Origin: a virus
DNA length: 64,000 bases
Virus record (IMG/VR): IMGVR_UViG_3300035703_000005
Span: 184,836 to 248,835 of that record
Direction: 5' to 3' (one strand)
The notes below the pieces were generated by a model. It was not told where the DNA came from. It saw only the letters and a list, made by a program, of their open reading frames with translations, and ran no database searches. Position 1 is the stretch's first letter. Each line of letters starts with the position of its first letter. Positions 29,584 to 63,729 of this stretch are shown in pieces. The position numbers and the translations under genes were made by a program.

Positions 29584-29654
29584 CTCAACATGGCTAAGAT
29601 ACCCCATCTGGCTACCCCATGGCATCATCTGTGGCCAGTTATTAAGCTGTCCAC
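29584..29654 (-). promoter_or_regulatory. Operator-promoter module 1
   Basis: Palindromic operator 29631-29654 (plus strand GTGGCCAGTT, ATTA, AGCTGTCCAC), an ATGCCA -35-like box and TATCTT -10 (29596-29601), then the conserved GCCATGTTGAGAGG leader with ribosome binding site. Leftmost copy of the 20-member family and the promoter nearest the DnaA-box locus. Confidence 0.65.
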
Positions 29655-29703
29655 TATTCACTCAGTTGTCAAGGTTCTATGGTAGGCTCATGATCCTTTG
29701 TGG

Positions 29704-29740
29704 CTTGAGCTTTACTTAAGCTTTCTTAAGCGGCTTAAGC
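29704..29740. repeat. Four phased CTTRAGC repeats
   Basis: CTTGAGC at 29704 and CTTAAGC at 29715, 29725 and 29734, spaced 11, 10 and 9 bp, so they sit on one face of the helix. They lie 100 bp from the first DnaA-box cluster, as iterons do at replication origins. Confidence 0.55.
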
Positions 29741-29837
29741 ACTCAGCCCCTTTATGCACTCCCACAGAGTTATTATAAGCCATTCAGAGGGCTTATGTCA
29801 AGCATGAGGATTAGAGCCCTTAGAGTGCTCATAAGGC

Positions 29838-29879
29838 TGTGGAAAACTTATAGACTTTTTCCACAAGTGTTGTGGAAAA
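29838..29879. other. DnaA-box cluster A (three TTTTCCACA)
   Basis: Three exact copies of the cyanobacterial-type DnaA box TTTTCCACA: 29838-29846 (minus), 29857-29865 (plus) and 29871-29879 (minus). One exact 9-mer is expected about once per 130 kb per strand, so three in 42 bp is not chance. Candidate origin or initiator-binding site. Confidence 0.65.
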
Positions 29880-29979
29880 CTTATAAGAACTGTGAGACCT
29901 TATGTGTAGCAAACTGTGTGGGTTCTGAGATTTATGTCCGGGTGCCATTGACATTTTAGCGGTCGTGTGATAGCCTGCC

Positions 29980-30111
29980 CGCTAAGATCACAAGGTCTCA
30001 GAGGCTTTTCAAGGGTGCTAACACAAGGTCTCAGAGGGCTTTAAGACTCTAGAAGCACCCTAAACTCACATGGCTTTGCGAAAGAAAGCTTTAACAAAGC
30101 CATGTTTTTTT
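29980..30111 (+). ncRNA. Candidate plus-strand structured RNA
   Basis: The only plus-strand transcript signal in the window. Stem AGGGTGCT (30012-30019) pairs with AGCACCCT (30054-30061); inside it TCT-C-AGAG (30029-30036) pairs with CTCTAGA (30047-30053). A strong terminator follows. A TTGACA -35-like box is at 29948-29953, with no good -10 at standard spacing, so the 5' end is approximate. Could be a primer RNA, antisense regulator or decoy RNA. Confidence 0.45.
30068..30111 (+). terminator. Rho-independent terminator on the plus strand
   Basis: Perfect 11-bp stem ACATGGCTTTG (30068-30078) / CAAAGCCATGT (30095-30105) followed by seven T residues (30105-30111). The T-run is on the plus strand only, opposite to every gene nearby, so a plus-strand RNA ends here. 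Confidence 0.75.
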
Positions 30112-30131
30112 AGCCATTTATTTTAAGCCCT

Positions 30132-30165
30132 TTTTCCACAGCTTTTTCCACAGCGTTGTGGAAAA
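30132..30165. other. DnaA-box cluster B (three TTTTCCACA)
   Basis: Exact TTTTCCACA at 30132-30140 and 30144-30152 (plus strand) and 30157-30165 (minus strand), 12-13 bp apart. Together with cluster A it flanks the structured RNA. AT-rich sequence (30101-30131) adjoins it and could serve as an unwinding element. Confidence 0.65.
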
Positions 30166-30250
30166 GCTATCATAACTCATTGTTAGCAACTCTCGGAGCA
30201 CTAGTAGTATGTAACTCCACTCCTCTCTAGGTGTTGTTTCCGTTGAGAGC

Positions 30251-30403
30251 TTAGGGGTCATAACTCTCTAACTCTACAGCCCCTTGAGCATAATCATCAT
30301 AGAACAGCTCATCCTCTGTGTGATTAGCATAGTGATCCATGATCTCTTGCTCAAAGTCAAAGAAGCTTTCTTCCCCGATAGGGTGAGCGTTAGCGATGTT
30401 CAT
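30251..30403 (-). CDS. Small acidic protein (50 aa)
   Basis: 50 residues (MNIANAHPIGEESFFDFEQE, ending GAVELESYDP), strongly acidic with no membrane segment. The ATG follows an AGGAGGAATAA ribosome binding site and overlaps the upstream gene's stop. Last gene before the DnaA-box locus. Function unknown. Confidence 0.65.
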   Translation of the reverse strand: MNIANAHPIGEESFFDFEQEIMDHYANHTEDELFYDDYAQGAVELESYDP

Positions 30404-30585
30404 TTATTCCTCCTGGTGTTGTATTCTCCGAGATTCTCTACATAAACCTCGTTGACACTTTCGTTACCTTTGAGTTCCAGAAGCTCACGCCAATTCCATT
30501 CCTTTGGACTGACACAATTTGTAGCATCAACTGTGAAGTCAAGAGTAACTCTGTAGCGCGTAACTTTGTCGTTGATTGTTTGCAT
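30400..30585 (-). CDS. Hypothetical protein (61 aa)
   Basis: 61 residues (MQTINDKVTRYRVTLDFTVD...), beta-strand-rich start then a helical part (WNWRELLELKGNESVNEVYV). AAAGGA ribosome binding site. It is led by a canonical sigma70 promoter (30623-30651). Resembles in style the 56-residue MQTIRIQVE gene at 32177, possibly a distant paralogue. Confidence 0.7.
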   Translation of the reverse strand: MQTINDKVTRYRVTLDFTVDATNCVSPKEWNWRELLELKGNESVNEVYVENLGEYNTRRNK

Positions 30586-30622
30586 TGTGCGATGTCCTTT
30601 GAGTGTAACAAACTACGTAGCT

Positions 30623-30651
30623 ATTTTATACTGTTTGAGGGTTTAAGTCAA
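30623..30651 (-). promoter_or_regulatory. Sigma70-type promoter TTGACT-17-TAAAAT
   Basis: -35 TTGACT (30646-30651), 17-bp spacer, -10 TAAAAT (30623-30628). It lies in the last codons of the preceding gene and lacks the palindromic operator, so it should be constitutive or early. Confidence 0.75.
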
Positions 30652-30796
30652 CAAAATTGTCATACTTTGACAACACTTCATTGATGACTTGATCTGTGAA
30701 ATAATCCACGATTTCATCATACATGAAGCTAATAGTTTCAGGTGAATAATTGTTCACCCAATTCGCTGAGATAAATGTTACTTCGGCTGATGGCAT
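30626..30796 (-). CDS. Hypothetical protein (56 aa)
   Basis: 56 residues beginning MPSAEVTFISANWVNNYSPE with an acidic helical C-terminal half. This start overlaps the stop of the 43-residue membrane peptide; an alternative start at 30847 would give 73 residues but would overlap that peptide fully. Its last codons contain the -35 of the next promoter. Confidence 0.6.
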   Translation of the reverse strand: MPSAEVTFISANWVNNYSPETISFMYDEIVDYFTDQVINEVLSKYDNFVDLNPQTV

Positions 30797-30909
30797 GATT
30801 CTTGAAAGTATTGTGCATAGCTTGGATTGAAACAACTGTCCCGCCATGTGGCGAAGATCAGTAGAGTCGTGGGAACGATTGCGATAGCAAATAGATGGCG
30901 TTTTTTCAT
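30778..30909 (-). CDS. Single-pass membrane peptide (43 aa)
   Basis: 43 residues: MKKRH, a hydrophobic helix (LFAIAIVPTTLLIFATW, about 6-22), then a short polar tail with two cysteines. The ATG overlaps the TGA of the upstream gene (TCATGA). An N-in inner-membrane peptide is likely. Confidence 0.6.
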   Translation of the reverse strand: MKKRHLFAIAIVPTTLLIFATWRDSCFNPSYAQYFQESCHQPK

Positions 30910-31091
30910 GAGTTGTTAATCAGATCTTGTTCAATCTGTTGGAGCATGTTTTCTGTCCAAGCTTGAGGATCTGCGACACCATTGTTTGCGTAGAGTTGAC
31001 TATACCGTAGACCATAAAGATCTGGGTTTAGGTGTTGCAACTCTTCAAGAGTTTGAGCAATCCGAACCTGTAGAATGTAGTCGTCAATCAT
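30906..31091 (-). CDS. Hypothetical protein (61 aa)
   Basis: 61 residues starting MIDDYILQVRIAQTLEELQH, all helical and acidic, ending MLQQIEQDLINNS. The chosen ATG overlaps the end of the upstream 56-residue gene (CATCATGATTGA). Function unknown. Confidence 0.65.
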   Translation of the reverse strand: MIDDYILQVRIAQTLEELQHLNPDLYGLRYSQLYANNGVADPQAWTENMLQQIEQDLINNS

Positions 31092-31254
31092 GATGCAAAA
31101 TGTCAATCATTTTTTGATGGTAAGCATCAGCGAGTTGCACAACATTATGAGATTGAGTAGGATCTTCAATCTCGTATTGTGTCATCTCAAGAGCAAAAAT
31201 GACGGTGGAGAGTAACTCTTGCAACTGTTCAAGCTTTTGAGTTTCAGTCATCAT
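31084..31254 (-). CDS. Small helical protein (56 aa)
   Basis: 56 residues (MMTETQKLEQLQELLSTVIF, ending QKMIDILHHD). Amphipathic helices, no motif. Start and stop overlap both neighbours by a few bases. Confidence 0.65.
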   Translation of the reverse strand: MMTETQKLEQLQELLSTVIFALEMTQYEIEDPTQSHNVVQLADAYHQKMIDILHHD

Positions 31255-31396
31255 TTGGATTCACCTCTTTGAGAACTTGAGTGAACAATTCAATCGCAGC
31301 TTCGTTGCAGTTGTCTTTCTTCATTCGGTAAATGTAGAACTCCAATGCTTCAGTGATAGCTTCTTGTTTGAGTTCTTCCCAGGTTGGCTTTGTCAT
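31244..31396 (-). CDS. Small helical protein (50 aa)
   Basis: 50 residues (MTKPTWEELKQEAITEALEF, ending VLKEVNPNDD). Acidic, helical. Coupled to the 56-residue gene by an 11-base overlap. Function unknown. Confidence 0.65.
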   Translation of the reverse strand: MTKPTWEELKQEAITEALEFYIYRMKKDNCNEAAIELFTQVLKEVNPNDD

Positions 31397-31402
31397 GATA
31401 AT

Positions 31403-31606
31403 TCAAGCCAAGATTGCGGACTTCATTTCAACATTGCGGATTTCCATCCGAGCATAATCATACCCCTCAACTTCCGTCAGTTGTTGATAGTATGCTTCAG
31501 CCGTAGAACGACAATCAAACAAGCAGAGAGAATCAAAGCTTTCGCCTTCATAATTCCAACCACCGATCACAGCATAAACTTGCACGAGGTTTGCTCCGTT
31601 GTTCAT
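31403..31606 (-). CDS. Hypothetical protein, leaderless-type start (67 aa)
   Basis: 67 residues from MNNGANLVQVYAVIGG. Contains CLFDCRSTAEAYYQQL, a segment echoed by GVFDCVTIASAFANCY in the gene at 32372, suggesting related proteins. The ATG lies about seven bases after the TATCTT -10 box, leaving no room for a leader or Shine-Dalgarno. Confidence 0.7.
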   Translation of the reverse strand: MNNGANLVQVYAVIGGWNYEGESFDSLCLFDCRSTAEAYYQQLTEVEGYDYARMEIRNVEMKSAILA

Positions 31607-31671
31607 GTGGCTAAGATACCAGGCCCAGAGTCCCCTCGGCGTGATCAGTGGACAGCCAGTGAACTGGCACA
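31606..31671 (-). promoter_or_regulatory. Operator-promoter module 2
   Basis: Operator 31648-31671 (plus strand GTGGACAGCC, AGTG, AACTGGCACA), a CGCCGA -35-like box and TATCTT -10 (31613-31618). The start codon follows at once, so the mRNA is predicted to be leaderless. Confidence 0.7.
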
Positions 31672-31713
31672 TTGCTACTCAAAAGGGGGCGAAGTGCCCC
31701 CTAGTGTGCTCAA

Positions 31714-31881
31714 TCAGAACTCAATCGGTTCAAGAGTTGCTACACCGAGAACGCTCTCAATCATCGGGGATTCGGCATAAGTGTGCCCGACAGAATCAGC
31801 GGCCAGAGTGTCAAGCACTTGCAGCATTTGATTGCCGTTTTGAGCAACGCGAAGCATACCGATTGCGGTTTCTTTGGTCAT
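31714..31881 (-). CDS. Hypothetical protein (55 aa)
   Basis: 55 residues from MTKETAIGMLRVAQNGNQML; helix-rich then a flexible tail. The upstream CCTTTTATC resembles a weak ribosome binding site. A longer frame from 31953 is possible but less likely. Confidence 0.6.
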   Translation of the reverse strand: MTKETAIGMLRVAQNGNQMLQVLDTLAADSVGHTYAESPMIESVLGVATLEPIEF

Positions 31882-31963
31882 GATAAAAGGAAAAAAGTGT
31901 AGGGCAATTTGAGTGTCTTTAGAGCGCATCTCATTCTCATTCGCTATTCGCAAATGGCGAATG

Positions 31964-32173
31964 TTACTGAACTTCCTCTAGCAAATTGTTCAGGTATTCT
32001 TCATCATAAAGCTCTGCAATCTCTGTTTTAATTTCATCCTCACTCATGCCATCTAGATTGTCACAAATGGTGTCAACAGCAAACTGACACAAATCGCGGA
32101 CATCCATGCCATCAACAACATCAGTGGCATAAAGTTCAATCAGTTTGGAAAGCTGTTCTTTGGAAAGTGTCAT
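31964..32173 (-). CDS. Acidic helical protein (69 aa)
   Basis: 69 residues (MTLSKEQLSKLIELYATDVV, ending EEYLNNLLEEVQ), 17 acidic residues, repeated amphipathic helices. Tightly spaced with the 56-residue gene upstream. Could be a DNA-mimic-like or binding peptide, from charge only. Confidence 0.65.
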   Translation of the reverse strand: MTLSKEQLSKLIELYATDVVDGMDVRDLCQFAVDTICDNLDGMSEDEIKTEIAELYDEEYLNNLLEEVQ

Positions 32174-32176
32174 GAT

Positions 32177-32347
32177 TCAGATGGTAGCTGGGGACAGGGA
32201 AACTTCAACTCGCTTCAGATTCAATCCAGCAAGTTGCTCATTCACACGCTTGCAGATTGCATCAGTCGGGTTCTTTAGCTTGGACTTCTCATACCAAATG
32301 GTACGGCAGCCGTCGTTGGTTTCTACTTGGATTCGGATGGTTTGCAT
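32177..32347 (-). CDS. Hypothetical protein (56 aa)
   Basis: 56 residues (MQTIRIQVETNDGCRTIWYE, ending EVSLSPATI). Mixed strand and helix, no motif. Start at an ATG with an adjoining CGCAAAG. Part of the operon behind module 3. Confidence 0.65.
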   Translation of the reverse strand: MQTIRIQVETNDGCRTIWYEKSKLKNPTDAICKRVNEQLAGLNLKRVEVSLSPATI

Positions 32348-32371
32348 CACTTTGCGTTGCAGTAGTTAGGA

Positions 32372-32539
32372 TCAGTCAAAAACAACAGGCTTGAAGTCAT
32401 CCGCATAACAATTAGCAAAAGCTGATGCGATGGTGACACAATCAAAGACACCAAGTTGCTCACCGTTGCGAACAGCAACCCACATAGGCTTGCGGGTCTC
32501 AAGATCAGCGCAGGGAAGAAAGTTGGTTGCGTTGGTCAT
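32372..32539 (-). CDS. Hypothetical protein (55 aa)
   Basis: 55 residues from MTNATNFLPCADLETRKPMW. The C-terminal half (GVFDCVTIASAFANCY) matches the style of the 67-residue gene at 31403, so the two may be paralogues. First gene after operator module 3; an upstream in-frame ATG is part of the promoter leader. Confidence 0.65.
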   Translation of the reverse strand: MTNATNFLPCADLETRKPMWVAVRNGEQLGVFDCVTIASAFANCYADDFKPVVFD

Positions 32540-32548
32540 TTGCGTTTG

Positions 32549-32619
32549 TCTCAACATGGCTAAGATACCAGAACTGGCTGGTCGTGGCGCGATCAGTGGA
32601 CAGCCGCTCAACTGTCACA
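32549..32619 (-). promoter_or_regulatory. Operator-promoter module 3
   Basis: Operator 32596-32619 (plus strand GTGGACAGCC, GCTC, AACTGTCACA), -35-like GCGCCA (minus strand, 32585-32590), 17-bp spacer, TATCTT (32562-32567). Five bp separate operator and -35. It holds the stop codon of the 62-residue gene. Confidence 0.75.
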
Positions 32620-32796
32620 CTCATAATCATAAGGCACAAGCTCTCTCGGTACGATTAACTGATTGTTGATCGAAAACTCATCCAAAAGATAATCAACTGT
32701 CATCTCCATTTGAGCAGCGTACCACTCAAACATCAGGTAAGTTTCCAATGGAATCTCGTAGCCTTCAGTTTCAACAATGGTGGGTTCTTTAGCCAT
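32608..32796 (-). CDS. Acidic hypothetical protein (62 aa)
   Basis: 62 residues from MAKEPTIVETEGYEIPLETY. YLMFEWYAAQMEMTVDYLLD forms a helix; the end is acidic and tyrosine-rich. The stop codon falls inside the operator of module 3. Confidence 0.65.
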   Translation of the reverse strand: MAKEPTIVETEGYEIPLETYLMFEWYAAQMEMTVDYLLDEFSINNQLIVPRELVPYDYECDS

Positions 32797-32800
32797 GATT

Positions 32801-32962
32801 TTACCAGTTAATGAGAGTAGCTGTGTTACCAAGTTTGTTCTGCTCATCCACGATTTCCATAGCATGAACATAAGTTTTGACAGTGACATAACGGGCTTTG
32901 CCTTTAGTCTCAGGGAACAAGCCGAGTCGGTCAATGATGCGAACAGTATTAGAATGTTTCAT
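32801..32962 (-). CDS. Basic hypothetical protein (53 aa)
   Basis: 53 residues from MKHSNTVRIIDRLGLFPETK (K/R-rich N-terminal half). AGGAAAACAAAG ribosome binding site. It overlaps the end of the 55-residue gene upstream by 14 bases. Confidence 0.6.
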   Translation of the reverse strand: MKHSNTVRIIDRLGLFPETKGKARYVTVKTYVHAMEIVDEQNKLGNTATLINW

Positions 32963-33116
32963 CTTTGTTTTCCTCAAGAGTGAAATCAGACTCGATACAA
33001 TCATACCAAGTCACCAAATCATAGTCTGGTTCCTGCATCCATTCTTCAGCTTCTTCCTTTGTGTTGAATGTCACAGTAGCAACGTTAGTCTCTTTGATGT
33101 GAACAGTGTAAGACAT
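32949..33116 (-). CDS. Hypothetical protein (55 aa)
   Basis: 55 residues (MSYTVHIKETNVATVTFNTK, with EEWMQEPDYDLVTWYDC). Alternating polar/hydrophobic, then acidic. Its 3' end overlaps the next gene. Function unknown. Confidence 0.65.
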   Translation of the reverse strand: MSYTVHIKETNVATVTFNTKEEAEEWMQEPDYDLVTWYDCIESDFTLEENKDETF

Positions 33117-33118
33117 AA

Positions 33119-33235
33119 TCAGTCAGCTGTGGATTGAATGAAGTTAGCAGTGGAGTGCAGAATGCTCCCCGTAGTGTAGCGAACCTGAGGAAAGATCAGG
33201 AACGCTACAATGAAGATCAGGCCGATTGTTTTCAT
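33119..33235 (-). CDS. Single-pass membrane peptide (38 aa)
   Basis: 38 residues: MKTIG, hydrophobic segment LIFIVAFLIFPQV (6-18), polar tail. Likely inner-membrane or secreted peptide. Ends at TGA two bases before the next start. Confidence 0.6.
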   Translation of the reverse strand: MKTIGLIFIVAFLIFPQVRYTTGSILHSTANFIQSTAD

Positions 33236-33239
33236 CGTA

Positions 33240-33566
33240 TCAGTTCAGCCGCATCCCAGAGAAGAAAGGAACAGTCACCGAATTGTTGCGATAATCGGAG
33301 AAAGTTACGAACCATTCGCCTTTCTTTTGAAACACATAGTCACCGTTACCATGCTCTTTGAGAATAGCATTCAGACGGGACTTAGTGGTAGCGGTGCGCC
33401 AGCCACCATCAAACAGTTCAATCCAAGTCTCACCGATACGAGCAATCAAGTTACCGTGCAGGTAGACATCAGCAACATTGGTGCAGCTGACAACCTCAGT
33501 GTTGTCCAGCTTGAAGTCCACACCGTTGGTGATGGCTTTGTTCATTTGCTGTTCGATCTTACGCAT
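33240..33566 (-). CDS. TTKSRLNAIL-type conserved phage protein (108 aa)
   Basis: 108 residues from MRKIEQQMNKAITNG. The stretch HGNLIARIGETWIELFDGGW followed by RTATTKSRLNAILKEHGNGD and VFQKKGEWFV is shared by small proteins in many cyanophages and plasmids. No catalytic motif. Preceded by operator module 4 and a long, G-rich leader. Start supported by a conserved-looking N-terminus. Confidence 0.75.
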   Translation of the reverse strand: MRKIEQQMNKAITNGVDFKLDNTEVVSCTNVADVYLHGNLIARIGETWIELFDGGWRTATTKSRLNAILKEHGNGDYVFQKKGEWFVTFSDYRNNSVTVPFFSGMRLN

Positions 33567-33610
33567 GGTTTGTGAAGCGATTGTTTGGTGGGGGGTCTCG
33601 TTTCCCCCCG

Positions 33611-33677
33611 ATGTGGCTAAGATACCAGGCCCAGAGGCCCCTCGGCGGGATTGGTGGACAGCCCGCAGATTGGCACA
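33611..33677 (-). promoter_or_regulatory. Operator-promoter module 4
   Basis: Operator 33654-33677 (plus strand GTGGACAGCC, CGCA, GATTGGCACA), CGCCGA -35-like box, TATCTT (33619-33624). The leader has a G6 run instead of the usual GTTGAGAGG. Confidence 0.65.
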
Positions 33678-34043: not shown

Positions 34044-34046
34044 GAC

Positions 34047-34250: not shown

Positions 34251-34293
34251 TGTAGGAAAAACGGAGGTTTTGATGTAGTAAATGTGGAGCTAA

Positions 34294-34461: not shown

Positions 34462-34471
34462 TGGTTTGATT

Positions 34472-34545
34472 CCTCTCAACATGGCTAAGATACAGGGCCC
34501 CAGCCCCCTTTGGCGGGTTTGGTGGACAGCCGCCCAACTGGCCTA
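34472..34545 (-). promoter_or_regulatory. Operator-promoter module 5
   Basis: Operator 34522-34545 (plus strand GTGGACAGCC, GCCC, AACTGGCCTA), CCGCCA -35-like box, 17/18-bp spacer, TATCTT (34487-34492), then the GCCATGTTGAGAGGAA leader. Confidence 0.7.
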
Positions 34546-34698: not shown

Positions 34699-34705
34699 GA
34701 TCGTT

Positions 34706-35190: not shown

Positions 35191-35261
35191 TCTCAACATG
35201 GCTAAGATACAGGATCTGGCTGGGTTTGGCGGGATCAGTGGACAGCCCACCAACTGGCACA
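35191..35261 (-). promoter_or_regulatory. Operator-promoter module 6
   Basis: Operator 35238-35261 (plus strand GTGGACAGCC, CACC, AACTGGCACA), CCGCCA -35-like box, 17-bp spacer, TATCTT (35204-35209). Confidence 0.75.
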
Positions 35262-36097: not shown

Positions 36098-36169
36098 TCT
36101 CAACATGGCCAAGATACCACCGCCAAGGCCCTCTCGGCGGATTTGGTGTGCAGCCCACCGATTGTCACA
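36098..36169 (-). promoter_or_regulatory. Operator-promoter module 7
   Basis: Operator 36146-36169 (plus strand GTGTGCAGCC, CACC, GATTGTCACA), CCGCCG -35-like box, TATCTT (36111-36116). Stop codon of the 58-residue gene is within the operator. Confidence 0.65.
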
Positions 36170-38140: not shown

Positions 38141-38213
38141 CTCTCAACATAGCTAAGATACATCGTATCAGCGCCCAGTGGGGGGATTAGTGTGCGGTTC
38201 GCGGATTGGCACA
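38141..38213 (-). promoter_or_regulatory. Operator-promoter module 8
   Basis: Operator 38190-38213 (plus strand GTGTGCGGTT, CGCG, GATTGGCACA), CCCCCA -35-like box, 18-bp spacer, TATCTT (38155-38160), then GCTATGTTGAGAG. Confidence 0.65.
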
Positions 38214-39420: not shown

Positions 39421-39493
39421 CTCTCAACATGGCCAAGATACCCGATCTGAGCCCCCAGTGGCGGGTCTGGTGTCCAGCCCGCCAACTGGCACA
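39421..39493 (-). promoter_or_regulatory. Operator-promoter module 9
   Basis: Operator 39470-39493 (plus strand GTGTCCAGCC, CGCC, AACTGGCACA), CCGCCA -35-like box, 17-bp spacer, TATCTT (39435-39440), then GGCCATGTTGAGAGGAA. Confidence 0.7.
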
Positions 39494-40005: not shown

Positions 40006-40077
40006 CTCTCAACATGGCTAGAATACATTGCCTGGCGTCCTCTGGCGAGTCACTAGGCCGGTTCCGGAACTGTCACA
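40006..40077 (-). promoter_or_regulatory. Operator-promoter module 10
   Basis: Operator 40054-40077 (plus strand TAGGCCGGTT, CCGG, AACTGTCACA), TCGCCA -35-like box, 17-bp spacer, TATTCT (40020-40025). It holds the GTG-TGA end of the 85-residue gene. Confidence 0.65.
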
Positions 40078-40781: not shown

Positions 40782-40841
40782 ACTATAAGGGGTCACGGTC
40801 GGGTCTGTGGAGGATTTTGTACCAGTTCCGGAACTGTCACA
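40782..40841 (-). promoter_or_regulatory. Operator-promoter module 11 (palindrome with perfect core)
   Basis: Operator 40818-40841 (plus strand TGTACCAGTT, CCGG, AACTGTCACA) with a perfectly symmetric 14-bp core. -35-like TCCACA, then TATAGT -10 (40782-40787). Leader carries an AAAGGA ribosome binding site. Confidence 0.75.
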
Positions 40842-41750: not shown

Positions 41751-41809
41751 ATCATACATGAAAAAAGGGCCCTGTAAAGGGCCCCCGAACCAGTTCGCAA
41801 ACTGTCACA
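41751..41809 (-). promoter_or_regulatory. Operator-promoter module 12
   Basis: Operator 41786-41809 (plus strand CGAACCAGTT, CGCA, AACTGTCACA), -35 TTTACA, 16-bp spacer, -10 TATGAT (41751-41756). A terminator hairpin overlaps the -35. The stop codon of the 40-residue gene is in the operator. Confidence 0.7.
41767..41784 (-). terminator. Terminator overlapping module 12
   Basis: GGGCCC-TTTACA-GGGCCC hairpin followed on the minus strand by six T residues. Ends transcription of the 40-residue gene while its loop serves as the -35 of the next promoter. Confidence 0.7.
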
Positions 41810-44060: not shown

Positions 44061-44450
44061 CTAACTTAATGCGTCAAGCAGTGGATTTGTGGATTTGGTG
44101 GACGGTTTGGGCTTTGTCACACCCTTGGATTTTGGTTTTGCGGGGGAACCCTTGGTGGCCTTGGGTTTTGATCCCTGAGAACCCTTGCGGCCACTAGACG
44201 GTTTCGCCTTTTTTTGCGATTTTTGGCTCACAGGGGTCTTACTACCCGTCTTGCGAACCCGATGCGAGTTTTTTAATTGTTCAAGCCGAATCTCTGCAAG
44301 CTGCCGAGTATCAACTACTTCAAGCTGTTGACCATCTGCAATAATCATGTATTGATTACCAAAGGGTACAGCAGCAAACTGAAAGTCTGGTGTGGTGAAT
44401 CCAGTGGGGCCATTGTCTGGATCCAAAATACTTGTGTTTGGAAAGTTCAT
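44061..44450 (-). CDS. Protein with lysine/serine/proline-rich tail (129 aa)
   Basis: 129 residues. The first 60 form a small domain (PNTSILDPDNGPTGFTTPDF, IADGQQLEVVDTRQLAEIRL); the rest is a disordered histone-like tail (KKAKPSSGRKGSQGSKPKAT, KPKSKGVTKPKPST). Nucleic-acid binding is plausible from composition. Downstream of the helicase by ATGA overlap. Confidence 0.7.
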   Translation of the reverse strand: MNFPNTSILDPDNGPTGFTTPDFQFAAVPFGNQYMIIADGQQLEVVDTRQLAEIRLEQLKNSHRVRKTGSKTPVSQKSQKKAKPSSGRKGSQGSKPKATKGSPAKPKSKGVTKPKPSTKSTNPLLDALS

Positions 44451-47308: not shown

Positions 47309-48333
47309 AGCCAGTCCTCCTGATTGTCGGATTCAATTTGCGGAAGAAACTTAAACTCAACATCCTTCACGGGATCGTATTTTCCTGCACGATAATCATC
47401 AACAATTTGGATGCAACGATTCAACATATCCTGCATCATTTGGGACTTTTTGTATTCACGGATCTTCTGAATCTTATCAGAAGTCGCATTGTTCACAGAA
47501 CAAATGTTGACGACCTTATCAACTTTACCACTTTGAAGAAGATAACAATCATCAAAGAAACAACGAGGATCGTAGTCAAGATCCTTGACACCACCAGATC
47601 CAGAACCACCCTTAAAAGTCTTGGAAATGTATGCAACACCGTCAAGAGGAACGATGTTACTACGAGAAGAAAACTCTAGTCCAGATTTGAACTCATCACA
47701 CCACACGCGACGAGTAGTATCGTCGTAAGATTTTACTGGAGTAATGATACCATATTTGGCACGGAGTTTCTCGCGGAGAGCAGGAAACTCATTAGTTTTC
47801 TGATTAAGTCGAATCAGACGAACATTGATTGACTTATCATCATCAATGTCAATAATACCCTTGTCAACCATATTTGCAAGGGTAAGGATAACATCGTTTT
47901 GAGTGCGAGGTGCCTTCACATACTCATCATCTTCGTCATTTTCGTTAGACTGGAAGATCATTTCATCTTCAAGACTATCGAAAGAAACAACTGCAACAAA
48001 GATAGTTTTCCGACCAGCAAGATAGTGAGCTTGAAGTCGGTGTTCACCACAAATAAGCTCAAAAGTACCGTTACCAAGATCCTTTACCGTTGGTTGTTCA
48101 TAACTGAACAAATAACGACCTTCTTCGATACGAGACACAAATGAAGCTACAACATCTCGATCAAGACCTTCAGCACGCACCTTGTTGGTATATTTGTTAC
48201 CAGTTCGTTGAACAACTTTACCAAGTTCAACTTCAAGGAAATAATCAAAGTTTACTCCTTCTCCACGAGGAATGTGGTTGGAGTTAGTAACCAGTTCGAC
48301 TTTTTTATCGAACGGGAGATCTAATGGGTTCAT
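47305..48333 (-). CDS. ParB/Srx-type nuclease-like protein (342 aa)
   Basis: 342 residues. Features: HIPRGEGVNFDYFLEVELGK near 18-38, SFVSRIEEGRYLFSYEQPTV near 64-84, and a GEHRLQAHYLAGRKTIFVAV motif (GxHR) near 95-115, which is the ParB/sulfiredoxin-like catalytic signature. C-terminus is a helical extension. First of a three-gene operon with its own promoter and structured leader. Role could be DNA nicking, partition-like or regulation; evidence is motif only. Confidence 0.8.
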   Translation of the reverse strand: MNPLDLPFDKKVELVTNSNHIPRGEGVNFDYFLEVELGKVVQRTGNKYTNKVRAEGLDRDVVASFVSRIEEGRYLFSYEQPTVKDLGNGTFELICGEHRLQAHYLAGRKTIFVAVVSFDSLEDEMIFQSNENDEDDEYVKAPRTQNDVILTLANMVDKGIIDIDDDKSINVRLIRLNQKTNEFPALREKLRAKYGIITPVKSYDDTTRRVWCDEFKSGLEFSSRSNIVPLDGVAYISKTFKGGSGSGGVKDLDYDPRCFFDDCYLLQSGKVDKVVNICSVNNATSDKIQKIREYKKSQMMQDMLNRCIQIVDDYRAGKYDPVKDVEFKFLPQIESDNQEDWL

Positions 48334-48374
48334 AGTTAAAATGTTTGCGAGGTTTGCATTATGCTTGACTTTGC

Positions 48375-48430
48375 CCTCTATTGAGGTCGTTGTCGTCGCG
48401 TGAGAGGTTAGTTTAGAGACTTAACTCTCA
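48375..48430 (-). promoter_or_regulatory. Two hairpins in the ParB-operon leader
   Basis: Between the -10 box and the ATG (about 98 bases) lie stem TGAGAGTTA/TAACCTCTCA (48401-48410 with 48421-48430; one bulge) and a short CCTC/GAGG hairpin (48375-48386). A possible attenuator or autoregulatory binding site. Confidence 0.5.
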
Positions 48431-48437
48431 TCGGTCT

Positions 48438-48466
48438 ATTATATTAAAAAGATTTCAGAAGGGCAA
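48438..48466 (-). promoter_or_regulatory. Sigma70-type promoter TTGCCC-17-TATAAT of the ParB-like operon
   Basis: -35 TTGCCC (48461-48466), 17-bp spacer, consensus TATAAT (48438-48443). The -10 overlaps the stop of the preceding 48-residue gene. Followed by a long structured leader. Confidence 0.75.
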
Positions 48467-48590
48467 GCGTTTCGGGATCAAATTGTTCCTGAACACCACC
48501 AATCGGAAGCCAATCTTCAGGATCAGTTTCCATCATGGATTGATACAAATCGTTCTCATCCATGTAATCGTAGTTGAAATCGTCGTTCAT
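48444..48590 (-). CDS. Acidic hypothetical protein (48 aa)
   Basis: 48 residues (MNDDFNYDYMDENDLYQSMM, ending ETLALLKSF). Very acidic N-terminal half. First gene after the class-II operator and promoter at 48614-48663. Function unknown. Confidence 0.65.
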   Translation of the reverse strand: MNDDFNYDYMDENDLYQSMMETDPEDWLPIGGVQEQFDPETLALLKSF

Positions 48591-48613
48591 GGGTGAATCA
48601 GTTGAACAAGGCC

Positions 48614-48663
48614 AAAATAATGTGGATTAGGGGAGAAGTCAAGGGGCTGACCGATCAGAGATC
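48614..48663 (-). promoter_or_regulatory. Class-II operator and promoter TTGACT-17-TATTTT
   Basis: TTGACT (48637-48642), 17-bp spacer, TATTTT (48614-48619); the repeat block CTGATCGGTCAG (CTGA/TCAG dyad) adjoins the -35. Second copy of the element seen before the helicase. Confidence 0.65.
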
Positions 48664-48693
48664 TTTATGATTGATCTCCGATCTCATAAGTTT

Positions 48694-48861
48694 TTACTTT
48701 TCTATTCTAAGATTGTCACGACAATAAACAAATCGTCTCCATTCTTCATCCGTAAAATTATCAGATGCGTATGGAATACCTACAACGTAGGCACAGAACT
48801 TGTTAATATCTTCAGAATAATTGTTGGAAGCAATAATAGAACTAGCGAGAAGTTCAATCAT
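48694..48861 (-). CDS. Hypothetical protein (55 aa)
   Basis: 55 residues (MIELLASSIIASNNYSEDIN, ending RRFVYCRDNLRIEK). Two short helices and a tail. ATG overlaps the stop of the prohibitin-like gene (CAAATGATTG). Confidence 0.65.
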   Translation of the reverse strand: MIELLASSIIASNNYSEDINKFCAYVVGIPYASDNFTDEEWRRFVYCRDNLRIEK

Positions 48862-49262
48862 TTGTTCATTTGAAGAGTAGGAACGGGCATACCACCTTCG
48901 GTAGGCACATAGATGGTCACATTACCTTTGTTAGCACCTTCTTCCAGACCAGTAATATACAGATACTGCAGATACTCACGATTGTCTTTCAGCGAGTTAC
49001 CGATGATCTGGTTTGCTTTCGCAACACCTTGAGCACGAATCACTTCAGCATCTGCAAGTTGTTGTGCAGAATCTTTCTTTGCTTGTGCTTCAAGAACTGC
49101 AACTTGACGGGTATATTCTGCTTTTTGTAGTTCTGCTTTACCTGCAAGGGATTGTGCCCATACATTATAGAGCGGACCAATAACAGCATTGATAATCACC
49201 AAAGAAACAAGGAAAGAGACGCCAATGATACTAGCGTTGCGAAGAGTGTTGTCTTGATTCAT
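48858..49262 (-). CDS. Prohibitin/stomatin-like membrane protein (134 aa)
   Basis: 134 residues: an N-terminal hydrophobic helix (ASIIGVSFLVSLVIINAVIG, about 11-30) and a long coiled-coil (ELQKAEYTRQVAVLEAQAKK, then DAEVIRAQGVAKANQIIGNS) with QYLYITGLEEGANK, the signature of the SPFH C-terminal region. The SPFH globular domain itself is missing, so this is a miniature form. Comparable proteins occur in cyanophages. Likely membrane scaffold. Confidence 0.75.
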   Translation of the reverse strand: MNQDNTLRNASIIGVSFLVSLVIINAVIGPLYNVWAQSLAGKAELQKAEYTRQVAVLEAQAKKDSAQQLADAEVIRAQGVAKANQIIGNSLKDNREYLQYLYITGLEEGANKGNVTIYVPTEGGMPVPTLQMNK

Positions 49263-50808: not shown

Positions 50809-51006
50809 CTAGTATGATGCACCAGAGGGGTCTGTGGCGTCCTCAGTGGACAGTTCAGAAAGTGTCCAAAGCGTCCTCTCACACTCTTGTCTAATGCAAT
50901 CAATAAAGTCCTGTTCTGTCCAGGTGTTCAAGATACTTTCAGTGGGATCATTTTCATCCCATGAAATAGTAAACGAACCATCTTGTTCTTCTGTTACTTC
51001 AATCAT
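50809..51006 (-). CDS. Acidic hypothetical protein (65 aa)
   Basis: 65 residues from MIEVTEEQDGSFTISWDEND. The last third (ELSTEDATDPSGASY) is encoded by operator module 13, so the coding sequence and the operator overlap. Function unknown. Confidence 0.6.
   Translation of the reverse strand: MIEVTEEQDGSFTISWDENDPTESILNTWTEQDFIDCIRQECERTLWTLSELSTEDATDPSGASY
50811..50869 (-). promoter_or_regulatory. Operator-promoter module 13
   Basis: Operator 50846-50869 (plus strand GTGGACAGTT, CAGA, AAGTGTCCAA), ACGCCA -35-like box, 17-18-bp spacer, CATACT -10 (50811-50816). Encoded within the 3' end of the preceding 65-residue gene. Confidence 0.65.
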
Positions 51007-53249: not shown

Positions 53250-53314
53250 AGAGTATTATAGGGTAAAAAGGGCACCAATGGAGATGCCCTTGTGCCAGTT
53301 CTTCAAGTGTCCTA
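53250..53314 (-). promoter_or_regulatory. Operator-promoter module 14
   Basis: Operator 53291-53314 (plus strand TGTGCCAGTT, CTTC, AAGTGTCCTA), terminator hairpin 53270-53289, CTCCAT -35-like box, TATAAT (53255-53260) followed by ACTCTTATACAC and an AAAGGA ribosome binding site. It holds the stop codon of the 97-residue gene. Confidence 0.75.
53270..53289 (-). terminator. Terminator inside module 14
   Basis: GGGCATCTCC/ATTGGTGCCC hairpin (GGGCA paired with TGCCC plus inner pairs) followed on the minus strand by TTTTT. It ends the upstream unit inside the next promoter. Confidence 0.7.
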
Positions 53315-56941: not shown

Positions 56942-57000
56942 ATTATAAGGCATCCACAGGGTTTATGGAGTGTCCTTGTGCCAGTTCTTCAAGTGTCCTT
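56942..57000 (-). promoter_or_regulatory. Operator-promoter module 15
   Basis: Operator 56977-57000 (plus strand TGTGCCAGTT, CTTC, AAGTGTCCTT), CTCCAT -35-like box, 17-bp spacer, TATAAT (56942-56947). It holds the stop codon of the 63-residue gene. Confidence 0.75.
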
Positions 57001-57946: not shown

Positions 57947-58005
57947 ATTATAAGGCAAAAAGGGGTCTTGTGGAGACCCCCTGTGCCAGTTCTTCAAGTG
58001 TCATT
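57947..58005 (-). promoter_or_regulatory. Operator-promoter module 16
   Basis: Operator 57982-58005 (plus strand TGTGCCAGTT, CTTC, AAGTGTCATT), terminator hairpin 57962-57980, CTCCAC -35-like box, TATAAT (57947-57952). It holds the stop codon of the 64-residue gene. Confidence 0.75.
57962..57980 (-). terminator. Terminator inside module 16
   Basis: Perfect stem GGGGTCT / AGACCCC (57962-57968 with 57974-57980, five-base loop) followed on the minus strand by TTTTTG. Ends the operon inside the next promoter. Confidence 0.8.
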
Positions 58006-58507: not shown

Positions 58508-58528
58508 CGGTTTGATGTGTATGAGAGT

Positions 58529-58587
58529 ATCATACCACTCCCAGAACCCCACAGAGCATCCCCTGTGCCAGTTTAGAAAGTGTCCTC
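58529..58587 (-). promoter_or_regulatory. Operator-promoter module 17
   Basis: Operator 58564-58587 (plus strand TGTGCCAGTT, TAGA, AAGTGTCCTC), CTCTGT -35-like box, TATGAT -10 (58529-58534). It holds the stop codon of the 52-residue gene. Confidence 0.7.
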
Positions 58588-60007: not shown

Positions 60008-60030
60008 AGGGTTTCTTTGTATATAAGAGT

Positions 60031-60090
60031 ATTATACACCAAAGGGCACCAGATTTCAAGTGCCCGTGTTCCAGTTTGGTAAGTGCCCTA
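60031..60090 (-). promoter_or_regulatory. Operator-promoter module 18
   Basis: Operator 60067-60090 (plus strand TGTTCCAGTT, TGGT, AAGTGCCCTA), hairpin GGGCAC/GTGCCC (60044-60065), -35 TTGAAA, 17-bp spacer, TATAAT (60031-60036). It holds the stop codon of the endonuclease gene. Confidence 0.75.
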
Positions 60091-60867
60091 TGCTATTCTG
60101 CGTCTATTACTCTTGGATGTATCTATTCCTTTTCCTTTTTGATAAGAAACTACACCAGCAGCAGTTGATACATAACCAGTTATACAACATTCCCATCTTT
60201 GTGCGTTTATAATCTTTGAAGAAATAGCACCACCTTTTTTAGCATTTTCTACCAACTGCTCTGTTGTTAGTGCGAATATACCGACCTTATTTTCTTTATT
60301 TTTAGCAGAAACCTTCTTTCCATTTTCACTTCTTTGTTCGGCAGACAATCCAAAAAGTCCAGTTCCATTTTTCCTATTTACTTCTGCTGCCTTTTTACCA
60401 TTTTCTCTTCTTTCTTCTGTTGTTTGTGCGAATATAGCAGTTTTATTTTTCATATTATTGTGTGCTATTTTCTTACCATTTTCACTCATTTGTTCTTTTG
60501 TTAGAGTGAATATTCCTAAACCAAGTTCTCTATTTCTTTTACCAATTCTCTTACCAGTTTTCCTTCTAATAGAAAGAGAAACTTTTCCCCCACAACTTTC
60601 ATTCAAGCACCATTTATCAGTATTATAAACAGGTCTAATCAATCTTGTTTCAACTTCTTGTGCTTCTATCCAACCTTCATCACTAAACTGAAAGAGTTGA
60701 AGTATCTGCTTCTTTGGAGTATAAAGTTCCCAACACCATTTATGAGTTACTGGAGAACCACAATAATCTTCGTTGAAGTATTTTTCCTTATGAACCCCAT
60801 AGTAGTAATAGGGCACTTCTTCAAAGGTAATTTTATACAAGTATATTCTTGGACTTTGTGAAGTCAT
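60088..60867 (-). CDS. GIY-YIG-like homing endonuclease with repeated DNA-binding modules (259 aa)
   Basis: 259 residues from MTSQSPRIYLYKITF. The N-terminal VPYYYYGVHKEKYFNEDYCG, YTPKKQIL, WIEAQEVETRLIRPVYN and CLNESCGGKVSLSIRRKTG fit GIY-YIG-type homing nucleases (GVH for GIY; E in AQEVE as catalytic site). Then about four repeats of the (G/A)(I/L)F-x-LTxEQ-x(5)NGKK type (residues 125-215), like NUMOD3. A late TATAAATA promoter and its own terminator flank it. Stop in operator module 18. A mobile selfish gene is likely; target site unknown. Confidence 0.75.
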   Translation of the reverse strand: MTSQSPRIYLYKITFEEVPYYYYGVHKEKYFNEDYCGSPVTHKWCWELYTPKKQILQLFQFSDEGWIEAQEVETRLIRPVYNTDKWCLNESCGGKVSLSIRRKTGKRIGKRNRELGLGIFTLTKEQMSENGKKIAHNNMKNKTAIFAQTTEERRENGKKAAEVNRKNGTGLFGLSAEQRSENGKKVSAKNKENKVGIFALTTEQLVENAKKGGAISSKIINAQRWECCITGYVSTAAGVVSYQKGKGIDTSKSNRRRIA

Positions 60868-60897
60868 AGTTCTGCTTCTAAATTGTGTTCGCAATAC

Positions 60898-60905
60898 TAT
60901 TTATA
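60898..60905 (-). promoter_or_regulatory. Late promoter TATAAATA before the homing endonuclease
   Basis: Perfect TATAAATA on the minus strand 30 bases before the chosen ATG, the only late octamer in the small-gene region. Homing endonuclease genes in T4 also sit behind late promoters. Confidence 0.75.
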
Positions 60906-60909
60906 CAAG

Positions 60910-60933
60910 AAAAGGTGCCCGAAGACACCTTTT
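60910..60933 (-). terminator. UUCG-loop terminator of the 175-residue gene
   Basis: GGTGTC-TTCG-GGCACC hairpin followed by TTTT on the minus strand (AAAAGGTGTC upstream arm). It ends the small-gene operon before the endonuclease gene; the symmetric A/T runs make it bidirectional. Confidence 0.8.
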
Positions 60934-60967
60934 CCACTCTTATGGATGCGAACACATTAGAGCATTA

Positions 60968-61495
60968 TTATTTATCATCAATCCACTTGAACCCTAAAAG
61001 TTTATCAGCACAAAATCTAATCAAAAAATTCGGTTTATAAGGCATATAAAACCTCAAATAACCATTACCGATTGTATAATAACCTTTGTGTTTATTTCCT
61101 TGTTTAATTATAAAACCGGAAGTAAAATTATTTGTTCCAAGAGAAGTGCTATAAGTTAGTATAGATTTTTGTGGAAATTGTCCGTTCTTCTTCGCATACT
61201 CAAAGTCCTCAATAATTCTATCAAACTTTCGATTGTAATAATACTCTTGATGACATTTGAGTTGTGCGAACTTGTATTCTACATCCTCAATTAGTTTATC
61301 AATCTTCTCATCAAACTCTTGTGAGATTTCTTCTAATGACTTGGGTGGTTCTGGAATATCAAGATAAGGTTTGATTACATCAAAATACTCATAATTTTCT
61401 GTGTAATAAAAAGCACCACAAACATAAGGAAGAATACTTTGAGGTGCTTTTTTGAGTTTCTTTGGGTTGAGTTTGTATCCTATTTTTTCAGTCAT
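60968..61495 (-). CDS. Hypothetical protein (175 aa)
   Basis: 175 residues (MTEKIGYKLNPKKLKKAPQS). A helical N-terminal half with a VIKPYLDIPEPPKSLEE segment, then KKNGQFPQKSILTYSTSLGT and a beta end (GYYTIGNGYLRFYMPYKPNF). Related in layout to the gene at 61492 (YELLKKYFTIPYVPEPL). Function unknown. Confidence 0.7.
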   Translation of the reverse strand: MTEKIGYKLNPKKLKKAPQSILPYVCGAFYYTENYEYFDVIKPYLDIPEPPKSLEEISQEFDEKIDKLIEDVEYKFAQLKCHQEYYYNRKFDRIIEDFEYAKKNGQFPQKSILTYSTSLGTNNFTSGFIIKQGNKHKGYYTIGNGYLRFYMPYKPNFLIRFCADKLLGFKWIDDK

Positions 61496-61713
61496 TTGTA
61501 ATCTTCAATATAATTTTGATAGTCAAAATCTGCCTTATCAAACTTCAAAGGTTCTGGAACATAAGGAATAGTAAAATACTTTTTGAGAAGTTCATACTGT
61601 TCGTTAGTTTCACTCGAATTAGCAACCAAGTTCATACACTCAAAGACATTTCGCACATCTTCAAGAGTTTGAATTTTACTTACATCAAGTTTGTGATTTA
61701 ATCTTTCAGTCAT
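61492..61713 (-). CDS. Hypothetical protein (73 aa)
   Basis: 73 residues (MTERLNHKLDVSKIQTLEDV). YELLKKYFTIPYVPEPLKFD resembles the N-terminal YFDVIKPYLDIPEPP of the 175-residue protein, suggesting a truncated paralogue. Overlaps the next gene by ATGA. Confidence 0.65.
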   Translation of the reverse strand: MTERLNHKLDVSKIQTLEDVRNVFECMNLVANSSETNEQYELLKKYFTIPYVPEPLKFDKADFDYQNYIEDYK

Positions 61714-61802
61714 TTTTTTCTATCCATAAGGTATTCAAGTAGTCCCAAAAACATAGAACCTCCCATATAAACAAGCATAACAATCATAAGAAACTCAATC
61801 AT
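61710..61802 (-). CDS. Miniature membrane peptide (30 aa)
   Basis: 30 residues, hydrophobic helix (FLMIVMLVYMGGSMFLGLLEYL) and a basic end (MDRKK). Overlaps both neighbours by ATGA. A membrane-active early peptide is possible. Confidence 0.55.
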   Translation of the reverse strand: MIEFLMIVMLVYMGGSMFLGLLEYLMDRKK

Positions 61803-62064
61803 CTTTCAAATACTCCTCATCAATCAGAATAATAGTATCAAAAGGTTGTTCGCATCCCAATACACAATAAGAACCAAACTTATTCATCAAGTCCCACATT
61901 ACAAACTCACAGTATCCATTTTCATCTTCCTTTGGTGGAGTATAAGGAAACTTATCCAATTTACCGTGAGAGTTCCAAAAATCTTCCCAGAGTTTCTTAT
62001 GAAGTTCTTTACCGAACTTTGTAAGTTTGACTTTGACTGGGTAGTTGATGTTAAAGGATTTCAT
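61795..62064 (-). CDS. Hypothetical protein (89 aa)
   Basis: 89 residues from MKSFNINYPVKVKLTKFGKE. Ends TIILIDEEYLKDD. Aromatic middle (LWEDFWNSHGKLDKFPYTPP). Its ATG overlaps the end of the upstream gene. Confidence 0.65.
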   Translation of the reverse strand: MKSFNINYPVKVKLTKFGKELHKKLWEDFWNSHGKLDKFPYTPPKEDENGYCEFVMWDLMNKFGSYCVLGCEQPFDTIILIDEEYLKDD

Positions 62065-62354
62065 TACCACTCCAACTCCACATAAATGCACCACCCCAAA
62101 TAATCGGGAAGATTATCTTTCAGGTATTCTACCATATATTCCTGCAATTCGTAAACAGTTGGAGAGCATTCATCAATCGTAATACCATACAACAAATCCT
62201 CATCGTGAATACTATACTTCACCCATACATCAGAAACTCTCACACTGGCATAATTTACACCAGCAAATCTTTCTGTGGAGTTCTTGTGAAGTTCAAGTGC
62301 TTTTGTGGCAACCTCTTGAATTTGGAATAGATTATCTTTGATGGTGTCGTTCAT
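62064..62354 (-). CDS. Hypothetical protein (96 aa)
   Basis: 96 residues from MNDTIKDNLFQIQEVATKAL. Helix, strand and helix (VWVKYSIHDEDLLYGITIDE). Overlaps both neighbours. No family recognised. Confidence 0.65.
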   Translation of the reverse strand: MNDTIKDNLFQIQEVATKALELHKNSTERFAGVNYASVRVSDVWVKYSIHDEDLLYGITIDECSPTVYELQEYMVEYLKDNLPDYLGWCIYVELEW

Positions 62355-62491
62355 TTGTGATGATAATCCCAAATCTGTTGTTCCACCAATTCTAACACAT
62401 CAGGGGGCACATAGGAAGTATCTGTGGTTTTTGGAAGTTTTGCGACTTCCTCACAGATAAGTTCCAGTTCCATTAGGGTATAGTCAATCAT
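62351..62491 (-). CDS. Small helical protein (46 aa)
   Basis: 46 residues (MIDYTLMELELICEEVAKLP, ending LVEQQIWDYHHK). Acidic helix and an amphipathic end. ATGA overlaps. Confidence 0.6.
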   Translation of the reverse strand: MIDYTLMELELICEEVAKLPKTTDTSYVPPDVLELVEQQIWDYHHK

Positions 62492-62844
62492 TTGAGGTTC
62501 TCTTTTAGATATTGAAGACAATCATTCCATCCTTGATTATATCCCATCTCATCTTCTTCATATTCTAACTCATCAGGCAACCATTTGGCAAAAATATTAC
62601 AGATGCCTTCAGCACCAACAATACCAAAAGAATTGAAATACTCAAGAAGTGTCTGTGGTTTTGGTTCTTCTACTCGTTGATACTTTACACCACCGATTTC
62701 AATAATGTCAGGGAGTTGTTGATTAGTCATTTGTGATTTCCTATAAAGACAATATTCTGGTTCAAAACATCCACCTTGAGTTGCGTTGGTTTCTACATCT
62801 ACTGGTGCATAACAGAACCCACAATCCCAGTATTTACATTTCAT
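62488..62844 (-). CDS. Cysteine-rich N-terminus plus KYQRVEEPK domain (118 aa)
   Basis: 118 residues. N-terminal CKYWDCGFCYAP and GGCFEPEYC form a likely zinc-binding knot (7 Cys). From residue 39 the sequence (MTNQQLPDIIEIGGVKYQRV) resembles the protein at 55244, ending WNDCLQYLKENLK like the 245-residue gene. It may be a fusion of two genes; a second start at M39 is possible. Confidence 0.7.
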   Translation of the reverse strand: MKCKYWDCGFCYAPVDVETNATQGGCFEPEYCLYRKSQMTNQQLPDIIEIGGVKYQRVEEPKPQTLLEYFNSFGIVGAEGICNIFAKWLPDELEYEEDEMGYNQGWNDCLQYLKENLK

Positions 62845-63119
62845 TTTGTCCCATCACAATAGATATGAGGATAACTGTCAGGATAACTTGCAGGTGGTTT
62901 TGAGATTACGGGAGAAACACAAGGAATTGTTTGAGAAGGAGTGAGGGGAGTATAAGGAGAACCAATATACATGCTATATGGAGATTTACTCAAATACTCT
63001 TCAATAATATTACAAGACCATCCATCCTCATAGAATTGCTTACCATAGAAAACAGCATCTTCCTTATTTGGAAAGGAAGCAACATAAGTGTCGTTGTGAT
63101 AGAGTGAATAAACTTTCAT
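62841..63119 (-). CDS. Proline/serine-rich protein (92 aa)
   Basis: 92 residues from MKVYSLYHNDTYVASFPNKE. The first 50 are a small alpha/beta fold; the rest is Pro/Ser/Tyr-rich (PYTPLTPSQTIPCVSPVISK). Overlaps the membrane gene upstream. Confidence 0.65.
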   Translation of the reverse strand: MKVYSLYHNDTYVASFPNKEDAVFYGKQFYEDGWSCNIIEEYLSKSPYSMYIGSPYTPLTPSQTIPCVSPVISKPPASYPDSYPHIYCDGTK

Positions 63120-63121
63120 AA

Positions 63122-63283
63122 TCAATCAGTAGTTTTAGAAGAACTAAAAGTCGTGTGAAGCAAAACGGCAAGAAATAAAAACCATCCCCAACCAGCAATT
63201 CCGTGAAAAGCAAGAATAATTGCTCCAATCACACAGGCAATAGAAGACAGATTAGCAAGAAGTAGAATAAGTGCGTGGTTCAT
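63122..63283 (-). CDS. Small membrane protein (53 aa)
   Basis: 53 residues from MNHALILLLANLSSIACVIG, two hydrophobic helices then a short polar tail. First gene behind module 19. Function unknown. Confidence 0.65.
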   Translation of the reverse strand: MNHALILLLANLSSIACVIGAIILAFHGIAGWGWFLFLAVLLHTTFSSSKTTD

Positions 63284-63304
63284 CGGTTTTATGTTTGTAA
63301 GGTT

Positions 63305-63364
63305 ATTATACGACAAAGGGCACCTGATTTCAAGTTCCCTTGTGACGGTTCTTCAAGTGTCCTT
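63305..63364 (-). promoter_or_regulatory. Operator-promoter module 19
   Basis: Operator 63341-63364 (plus strand TGTGACGGTT, CTTC, AAGTGTCCTT), -35 TTGAAA, 17-bp spacer, TATAAT (63305-63310). It holds the stop codon of the 97-residue gene. Confidence 0.75.
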
Positions 63365-63646
63365 ACCAAACTCCTTTTTGAGTTGTTCATATTGTTTACG
63401 ACGATTTTCTTTTTGTTGCTCTTCTTGTTTCACTCTCTTTTCATACTCTTCATCATTTTCAAGACGGGTTTTGTAGACATAGTAGTCTTTTCCTCCATTC
63501 CCATAATCATAATCATAATCAATACCTTCCCAACCCTCTTTTTTGCACCTTTGGAGTGTGGAAATGATTTTGTCTATTGAACCATAAAACTCACCATAGT
63601 AACAAAAATCTTTGCTTTCTTTGATTGTAATGCGTTCAGCAGTCAT
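63353..63646 (-). CDS. Lysine/glutamate-rich protein (97 aa)
   Basis: 97 residues (MTAERITIKESKDFCYYGEF). The second half is a charged helix (VKQEEQQKENRRKQYEQLKK). First gene behind module 20. Stop inside operator module 19. Confidence 0.7.
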   Translation of the reverse strand: MTAERITIKESKDFCYYGEFYGSIDKIISTLQRCKKEGWEGIDYDYDYGNGGKDYYVYKTRLENDEEYEKRVKQEEQQKENRRKQYEQLKKEFGKDT

Positions 63647-63669
63647 CAGTCCTCTGTGTGTATAGAAGT

Positions 63670-63729
63670 ATTATACGACAAAAGGCACCTGATTTCAAGT
63701 GCCCTTGTGCCAATTTAGTAAGTGTCCTT
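63670..63729 (-). promoter_or_regulatory. Operator-promoter module 20
   Basis: Operator 63706-63729 (plus strand TGTGCCAATT, TAGT, AAGTGTCCTT), hairpin GGCAC/GTGCC (63684-63703), -35 TTGAAA, 17-bp spacer, TATAAT (63670-63675). Upstream gene ends two bases into it. Confidence 0.75.

Follow-up and report, generated by a model that had tools for sequence, protein, structure and literature searches.

Introduction

T4-like cyanophages abound in both marine and lake waters; they are without the middle activators of T4, and there is no settled account of how they take over transcription in the host. A 24-bp palindrome repeated ahead of small genes in one virus genome, which a first-pass annotation took for the mark of a phage-wide regulon, raises the question of what kind of control it serves and whose protein reads it. 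The window, meaning the whole stretch of 64,000 nucleotides that was analysed, comprises bases 184836–248835 of a 248,835-bp IMG/VR virus record. The sequence identifies the source as a 248.8-kb T4-like cyanophage. Its closest relative by DNA is Synechococcus phage S-SRM01, a member of Kyanoviridae that came from a reservoir in Singapore, and the core proteins, with gp23, portal, terminase, polymerase, gp55 and gp33 among them, pair one-to-one with those of Syn9. Tail (late) genes fill 1–29 kb of the window and small minus-strand ORFs follow in series from 29 to 64 kb; this run carries on at the start of the record.

An array of dyads in the small-gene cluster

The palindrome consists of inverted half-sites AASTGKCMCA separated by a 4-bp spacer. 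With that spacer 18 dyads reach at least 13 of 14, and all other spacers, 0 to 12 bp in length, give 0–1. A scan for palindromicity without the motif proved too noisy. A composite matrix, trained on this genome only and combining the dyad with a −10 element at 27–32 nt, finds 36 matches in the whole genome, as against 2, 2, 0 and 1 in order-3 Markov shuffles. A chance origin of the dyads is ruled out by the spacer and Markov controls. Exactly 20 sites in the window have a combined score of at least 20, with starts from 29631 to 63706, as the annotation had counted and placed them. The common strand relation that it had noted also holds: all 20 have their −10 on the minus, gene-coding strand, 28–30 nt past the 24-mer, and in nearly all an ATG follows 6–29 nt beyond the −10. 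The sites found with the composite matrix are given below, together with one possible degenerate dyad that falls under its threshold.

29631–29654, minus strand, dyad; −10 TATCTT at 29596–29601
31648–31671, minus strand, dyad; −10 TATCTT at 31613–31618; hairpin and T run immediately 5′ of the dyad
32596–32619, minus strand, dyad; −10 TATCTT at 32562–32567
33654–33677, minus strand, dyad; −10 TATCTT at 33619–33624
34522–34545, minus strand, dyad; −10 TATCTT at 34487–34492
35238–35261, minus strand, dyad; −10 TATCTT at 35204–35209
36146–36169, minus strand, weaker dyad; −10 TATCTT at 36111–36116
38190–38213, minus strand, weaker dyad; −10 TATCTT at 38155–38160
39470–39493, minus strand, dyad; −10 TATCTT at 39435–39440
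40054–40077, minus strand, dyad; −10 TATTCT at 40020–40025
40818–40841, minus strand, dyad; −10 TATAGT at 40782–40787
41786–41809, minus strand, dyad; −10 TATGAT at 41751–41756; before the DUF6267 gene (phrog_455, Syn9 gp183 homologue)
44098–44121, minus strand, possible degenerate dyad; poor −10 TAAGTT; under the composite-matrix threshold
50846–50869, minus strand, dyad; −10 CATACT at 50811–50816
53291–53314, minus strand, dyad; terminator-like hairpin, then −10 TATAAT at 53255–53260
56977–57000, minus strand, dyad; −10 TATAAT at 56942–56947
57982–58005, minus strand, dyad; hairpin GGGGTCT..AGACCCC and T run, then −10 TATAAT at 57947–57952
58564–58587, minus strand, dyad; −10 TATGAT at 58529–58534
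60067–60090, minus strand, dyad; −10 TATAAT at 60031–60036
63341–63364, minus strand, dyad; −10 TATAAT at 63305–63310
63706–63729, minus strand, dyad; −10 TATAAT at 63670–63675

No dyad in the tail and late-gene part (1–29 kb) lies above a combined score of 20, which bears out the claim that the late genes carry no such array. The dyads do occupy gene junctions, but the description of them as always intergenic is too strict, since the ORF upstream often has its stop codon inside the dyad (TGA in CTTGAAG). The same arrangement of dyad and −10 recurs outside the window at record positions 1489, 2026, 142169 and 145363, with dyad variants at 18848, 98031 and 108149. A promoter-linked array that extends beyond the window agrees with the regulon that was proposed; confinement to one genome does not hold, as the dyad is common to many cyanophages.

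Promoter geometry

The distance from the end of the dyad to the −10 is 28, 29 or 30 nt in 18, 115 and 43 cases, that is, in 176 of the 185 matches from 11 genomes. TATAAT, TATCTT and TATACT are the commonest −10 hexamers, and an ATG lies 18–30 nt past the −10 at 90 of 104 sites, compared with 4.8% of random positions. The −35 is mostly poor or degenerate. Matches of 5–6 bases to TTGACA at the right spacing are found at 27 of 142 sites against 1.5 by shuffling, so a repressor site at an otherwise ordinary sigma-70 promoter is conceivable for some of these. Judged by these regularities, the dyad promoters are a defined promoter class with a predicted operator centred near −53. The dyads had been described as lying upstream of −35 elements; upstream of promoters they are, but their place is fixed relative to the −10.

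Local styles can be discerned within the window. At 31–40 kb the −10 is mostly TATCTTAGCCATGTTGAG, whereas at 53–64 kb it is TATAATACTCTCATA or similar and a terminator-like hairpin often stands between dyad and −10. A hairpin with a T run is present at several sites (for instance 57982, 53291 and 41786), and elsewhere the hairpin is weak or missing. The stretch TATCTTAGCCATGTTGAG, running from the −10 into the leader (29583–29601 and other sites at 31–40 kb), is itself conserved, with matches in the marine phages S-8S53, S-CAM9, S-PRM1 and S-T4.

The inverted symmetry of the dyad would also be expected of an element that folds into a hairpin in the transcript. The half-site consensus was drawn from 142 sites; at its variable positions, such as position 3 (C or G) and position 6 (T or G), the two halves agree in 54 of 142 sites, where 66 and 64 are expected, and there is no covariation. 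Because the variable bases of the halves do not covary, the dyad is best read as a DNA site whose halves are presumably recognized separately, and not as an RNA hairpin. Furthermore, the dyad precedes the −10 and would be missing from the main transcript, and the Rfam matches coincide with no site. The RNA reading is thus largely refuted by the lack of covariation and of a relevant Rfam match, and we regard it as exceedingly improbable.

Distribution among phages and hosts

The composite matrix finds 12 matches in Syn9, 27 in S-PM2, 23 in S-CRM01, 26 in S-SKS1, 32 in P-SSM2, 21 in P-SSM4, 39 in S-SRM01, 25 in S-SSM7, 15 in S-8S53 and 8 in S-TIM5; in these counts for ten cyanophages (8–39, shuffles 0–3) some sites are counted on both strands. 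Values at or near chance are obtained for T4 (1), Ma-LMM01 (0), HTVC008M (2) and P-TIM68 (2). P-TIM68 has at least one convincing dyad site and P-TIM40 has 3 strict dyads. S-SKS1 and S-TIM5 lie outside Kyanoviridae by the taxonomy of their records, yet bear the dyad. Among the IMG/VR matches listed, each of two strict patterns is represented by more than 120 stretches, and a −10 at 28–30 nt is strongly enriched. Dyad promoters precede the CobS-like gene, the gene of a peptidase (homologue of Syn9 gp150) and that of DUF6267 both here and in Syn9, where the dyads are mostly in the small-ORF cluster at 43–53 kb. S-TIM5, which shares few genes with Kyanoviridae, has sites of the same geometry with the variant half-site AASTGGCCCA, clustered at the end of its record (163774–170888; L362:3774–10888).

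Cellular genomes present a different picture. A search of 257 Gb from 84,980 bacterial and archaeal species genomes finds the strict dyad 8 times, about the chance expectation, and not once in the picocyanobacterial genomes among them. Two of the 8 matches look like binned cyanophage contigs with a rightly placed −10, and the others are consistent with chance or with unrelated repeats. The composite pattern stays near the control level in 386 cyanobacterial genomes, with at most 3 matches in any one of them, and cyanobacterial matches inspected singly form no coherent regulon. By this distribution the dyad element is viral. Three related cyanobacterial genomes (L442–L444, near base 2000) do share a dyad, GACAGTT-N4-AACTGTCC, which lies some 400 nt ahead of a glycerol-kinase-like gene.

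Search for the binding protein

The annotation saw no regulator in the window, and the searches have likewise yielded weak leads only. By presence and absence in 15 phages, no DNA-binding family was found in every dyad-bearing phage, which weakens the case for a single conserved phage factor. The best-profiled candidate regulator, to be taken as a lead, is phrog_661 (MazE/AbrB-like), which 11 of the 13 dyad-rich phages have and none of the 6 dyad-poor ones (p = 0.001 by a Fisher test that ignores kinship and uses our own grouping into dyad-rich and dyad-poor). Its gene often lies at the end of the early cluster, as in Syn9, P-SSM2, P-SSM4, P-TIM40, S-SKS1 and S-SRM01. It is absent from S-CRM01 and S-SSM7, and the protein is acidic. 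In the present phage phrog_661 forms the C-terminal MazE/AbrB-like domain of a 220-aa protein (L003:8291–8953; G000 48291–48953, minus strand); a related fused form occurs in S-SRM01 and several IMG/VR contigs. The other candidates are phrog_1920/1308, which appear HTH-like by eye, have no Pfam match and are absent from S-SSM7 and P-SSM4; phrog_552, absent from S-PM2; and phrog_507, absent from S-CRM01. The 'transcriptional regulator' phrog_385 lacks both a Pfam match and an obvious HTH.

Discussion

The dyad is probably the operator at which a dimeric activator specific to the viruses turns on early and accessory cyanophage genes. Each control unit would consist of two inverted half-sites with a 4-bp spacer, 28–30 nt, a −10, about 18–30 nt and an ATG. 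Assuming a start about 7 nt past the −10, the dyad would cover positions −65 to −42 or so, immediately before the mostly degenerate −35. The annotation had proposed a dimeric DNA-binding protein, and a dyad for such a protein is supported. A dimeric transcription factor of the virus would bind there and bring the RNA polymerase of the host to the early and accessory operons, and the terminator-like hairpins beside many sites may insulate each operon. The fixed distance, the place upstream of a weak −35, the independent half-sites and the restriction to viruses all fit a dimeric activator. Such a factor would do the job of MotA/AsiA in T4 by way of a different site and geometry. A further step can be offered only tentatively: one dimeric activator encoded by the viruses, which may travel in the virion, would read the dyad in several cyanophage lineages in place of MotA/AsiA, with a half-site that varies (AASTGGCCCA in S-TIM5) and a specificity that has diverged with the factor.

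Alternatively, a transcription factor of the picocyanobacterial host could read the dyad and be exploited by the phages, as PhoB is by P-SSM2 and S-PM2. S-TIM5, S-SKS1 and Kyanoviridae have little else in common but the host, and the binding of host PhoB to S-PM2 promoters provides a precedent (PMC10976474). A host factor should, however, have host sites, and neither the strict dyad in picocyanobacteria nor the composite pattern in the 386 cyanobacteria provides them; a host-regulon site of the NtcA or PhoB type was rejected since the host genomes scanned do not carry the site above chance. We consider a host factor unlikely. A repressor or autoregulatory site that turns early promoters off is a somewhat less likely reading still. 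The dyad abuts the consensus −35 of the phrog_552 gene at record position 98031 and in S-SRM01, and the TTGACA-like hexamer retained at some sites points the same way. Nevertheless, most sites are without a good −35 and would need help in firing, and a fixed 28–30 nt to the −10, which puts the dyad outside the core promoter, suits an activator better than a blocker.

The repeats could also be cassettes for recombination and shuffling, of the kind of the promoter-early stem-loops (PeSLs) of T4-like phages (Arbiol 2010, Comeau 2014, cited in PMC4503421), with the dyad merely marking the junctions. The location at gene junctions of a hypervariable region beside terminator-like hairpins speaks for this, and the compact combination of terminator and promoter at variable early-gene junctions that marks PeSLs may be present at those sites that have a hairpin with a T run. 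PeSLs are not known to include a dyad operator, and S-PM2, for which a low density of PeSLs is reported (PMC4503421), has about 20 dyad promoters. Homology at junctions would leave the exact 4-bp spacer, the half-site symmetry and the fixed −10 spacing unexplained, and the dyad precedes orthologous genes in distant phages. Cassettes as the full explanation are very doubtful.

The activator reading has a counterpart in the middle promoters of T4, in which an activator site (the MotA box, used by MotA/AsiA) stands in for a good −35 before a sigma-70 −10. The dyad promoters likewise have a putative activator site in place of a good −35 upstream of such a −10, but the sequence is another one, and a dyad of two halves far upstream contrasts with the single box near −30 of T4. 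Identity with T4 middle promoters was rejected on motif and geometry, and on the 1 composite match in the T4 genome. In T4-like cyanophages motA and/or asiA is missing (PMC5780444).

The control array is well supported, but whether it is undescribed, as the annotation had it, is doubtful, since Syn9 carries the dyad and a novel regulatory element was reported by Doron et al. in 2016 to control early-gene transcription in Syn9, with similar results for P-TIM40 and conservation in T4-like cyanophages. The dyad is probably that element; Syn9 carries it mainly in the small-ORF cluster. The geometry in Syn9 is the same, and the matches there (12, against 0–3 in shuffles), the strict dyads of P-TIM40 and the conservation across T4-like cyanophages are further points of likeness. 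The present analysis works out the dyad with its 4-bp spacer, the 28–30 nt rule and the absence from hosts for further genomes, among them S-TIM5 and a Serangoonvirus-like phage of fresh water; the distances to the −10 and to the start codon are new here. From the consensus and its fixed spacing, transcription starts can be predicted for well over 100 promoters of the 11 genomes. The dyad can also be employed as bait for the regulator and as a marker of early genes in metagenomic phage contigs.

Two other repeats were noticed among the small genes. Four in-frame tandem repeats of 78 nt (60260–60573) lie within the ORF at 60088–60894 and are possibly NUMOD-like modules. Where the early cluster ends, TTTTCCACA/TGTGGAAAA, which matches the cyanobacterial DnaA box, occurs six times in about 330 bp of mostly non-coding DNA (29838–30165), copies elsewhere in the genome being scattered. 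This cluster is a possible replication origin that would use the DnaA of the host.
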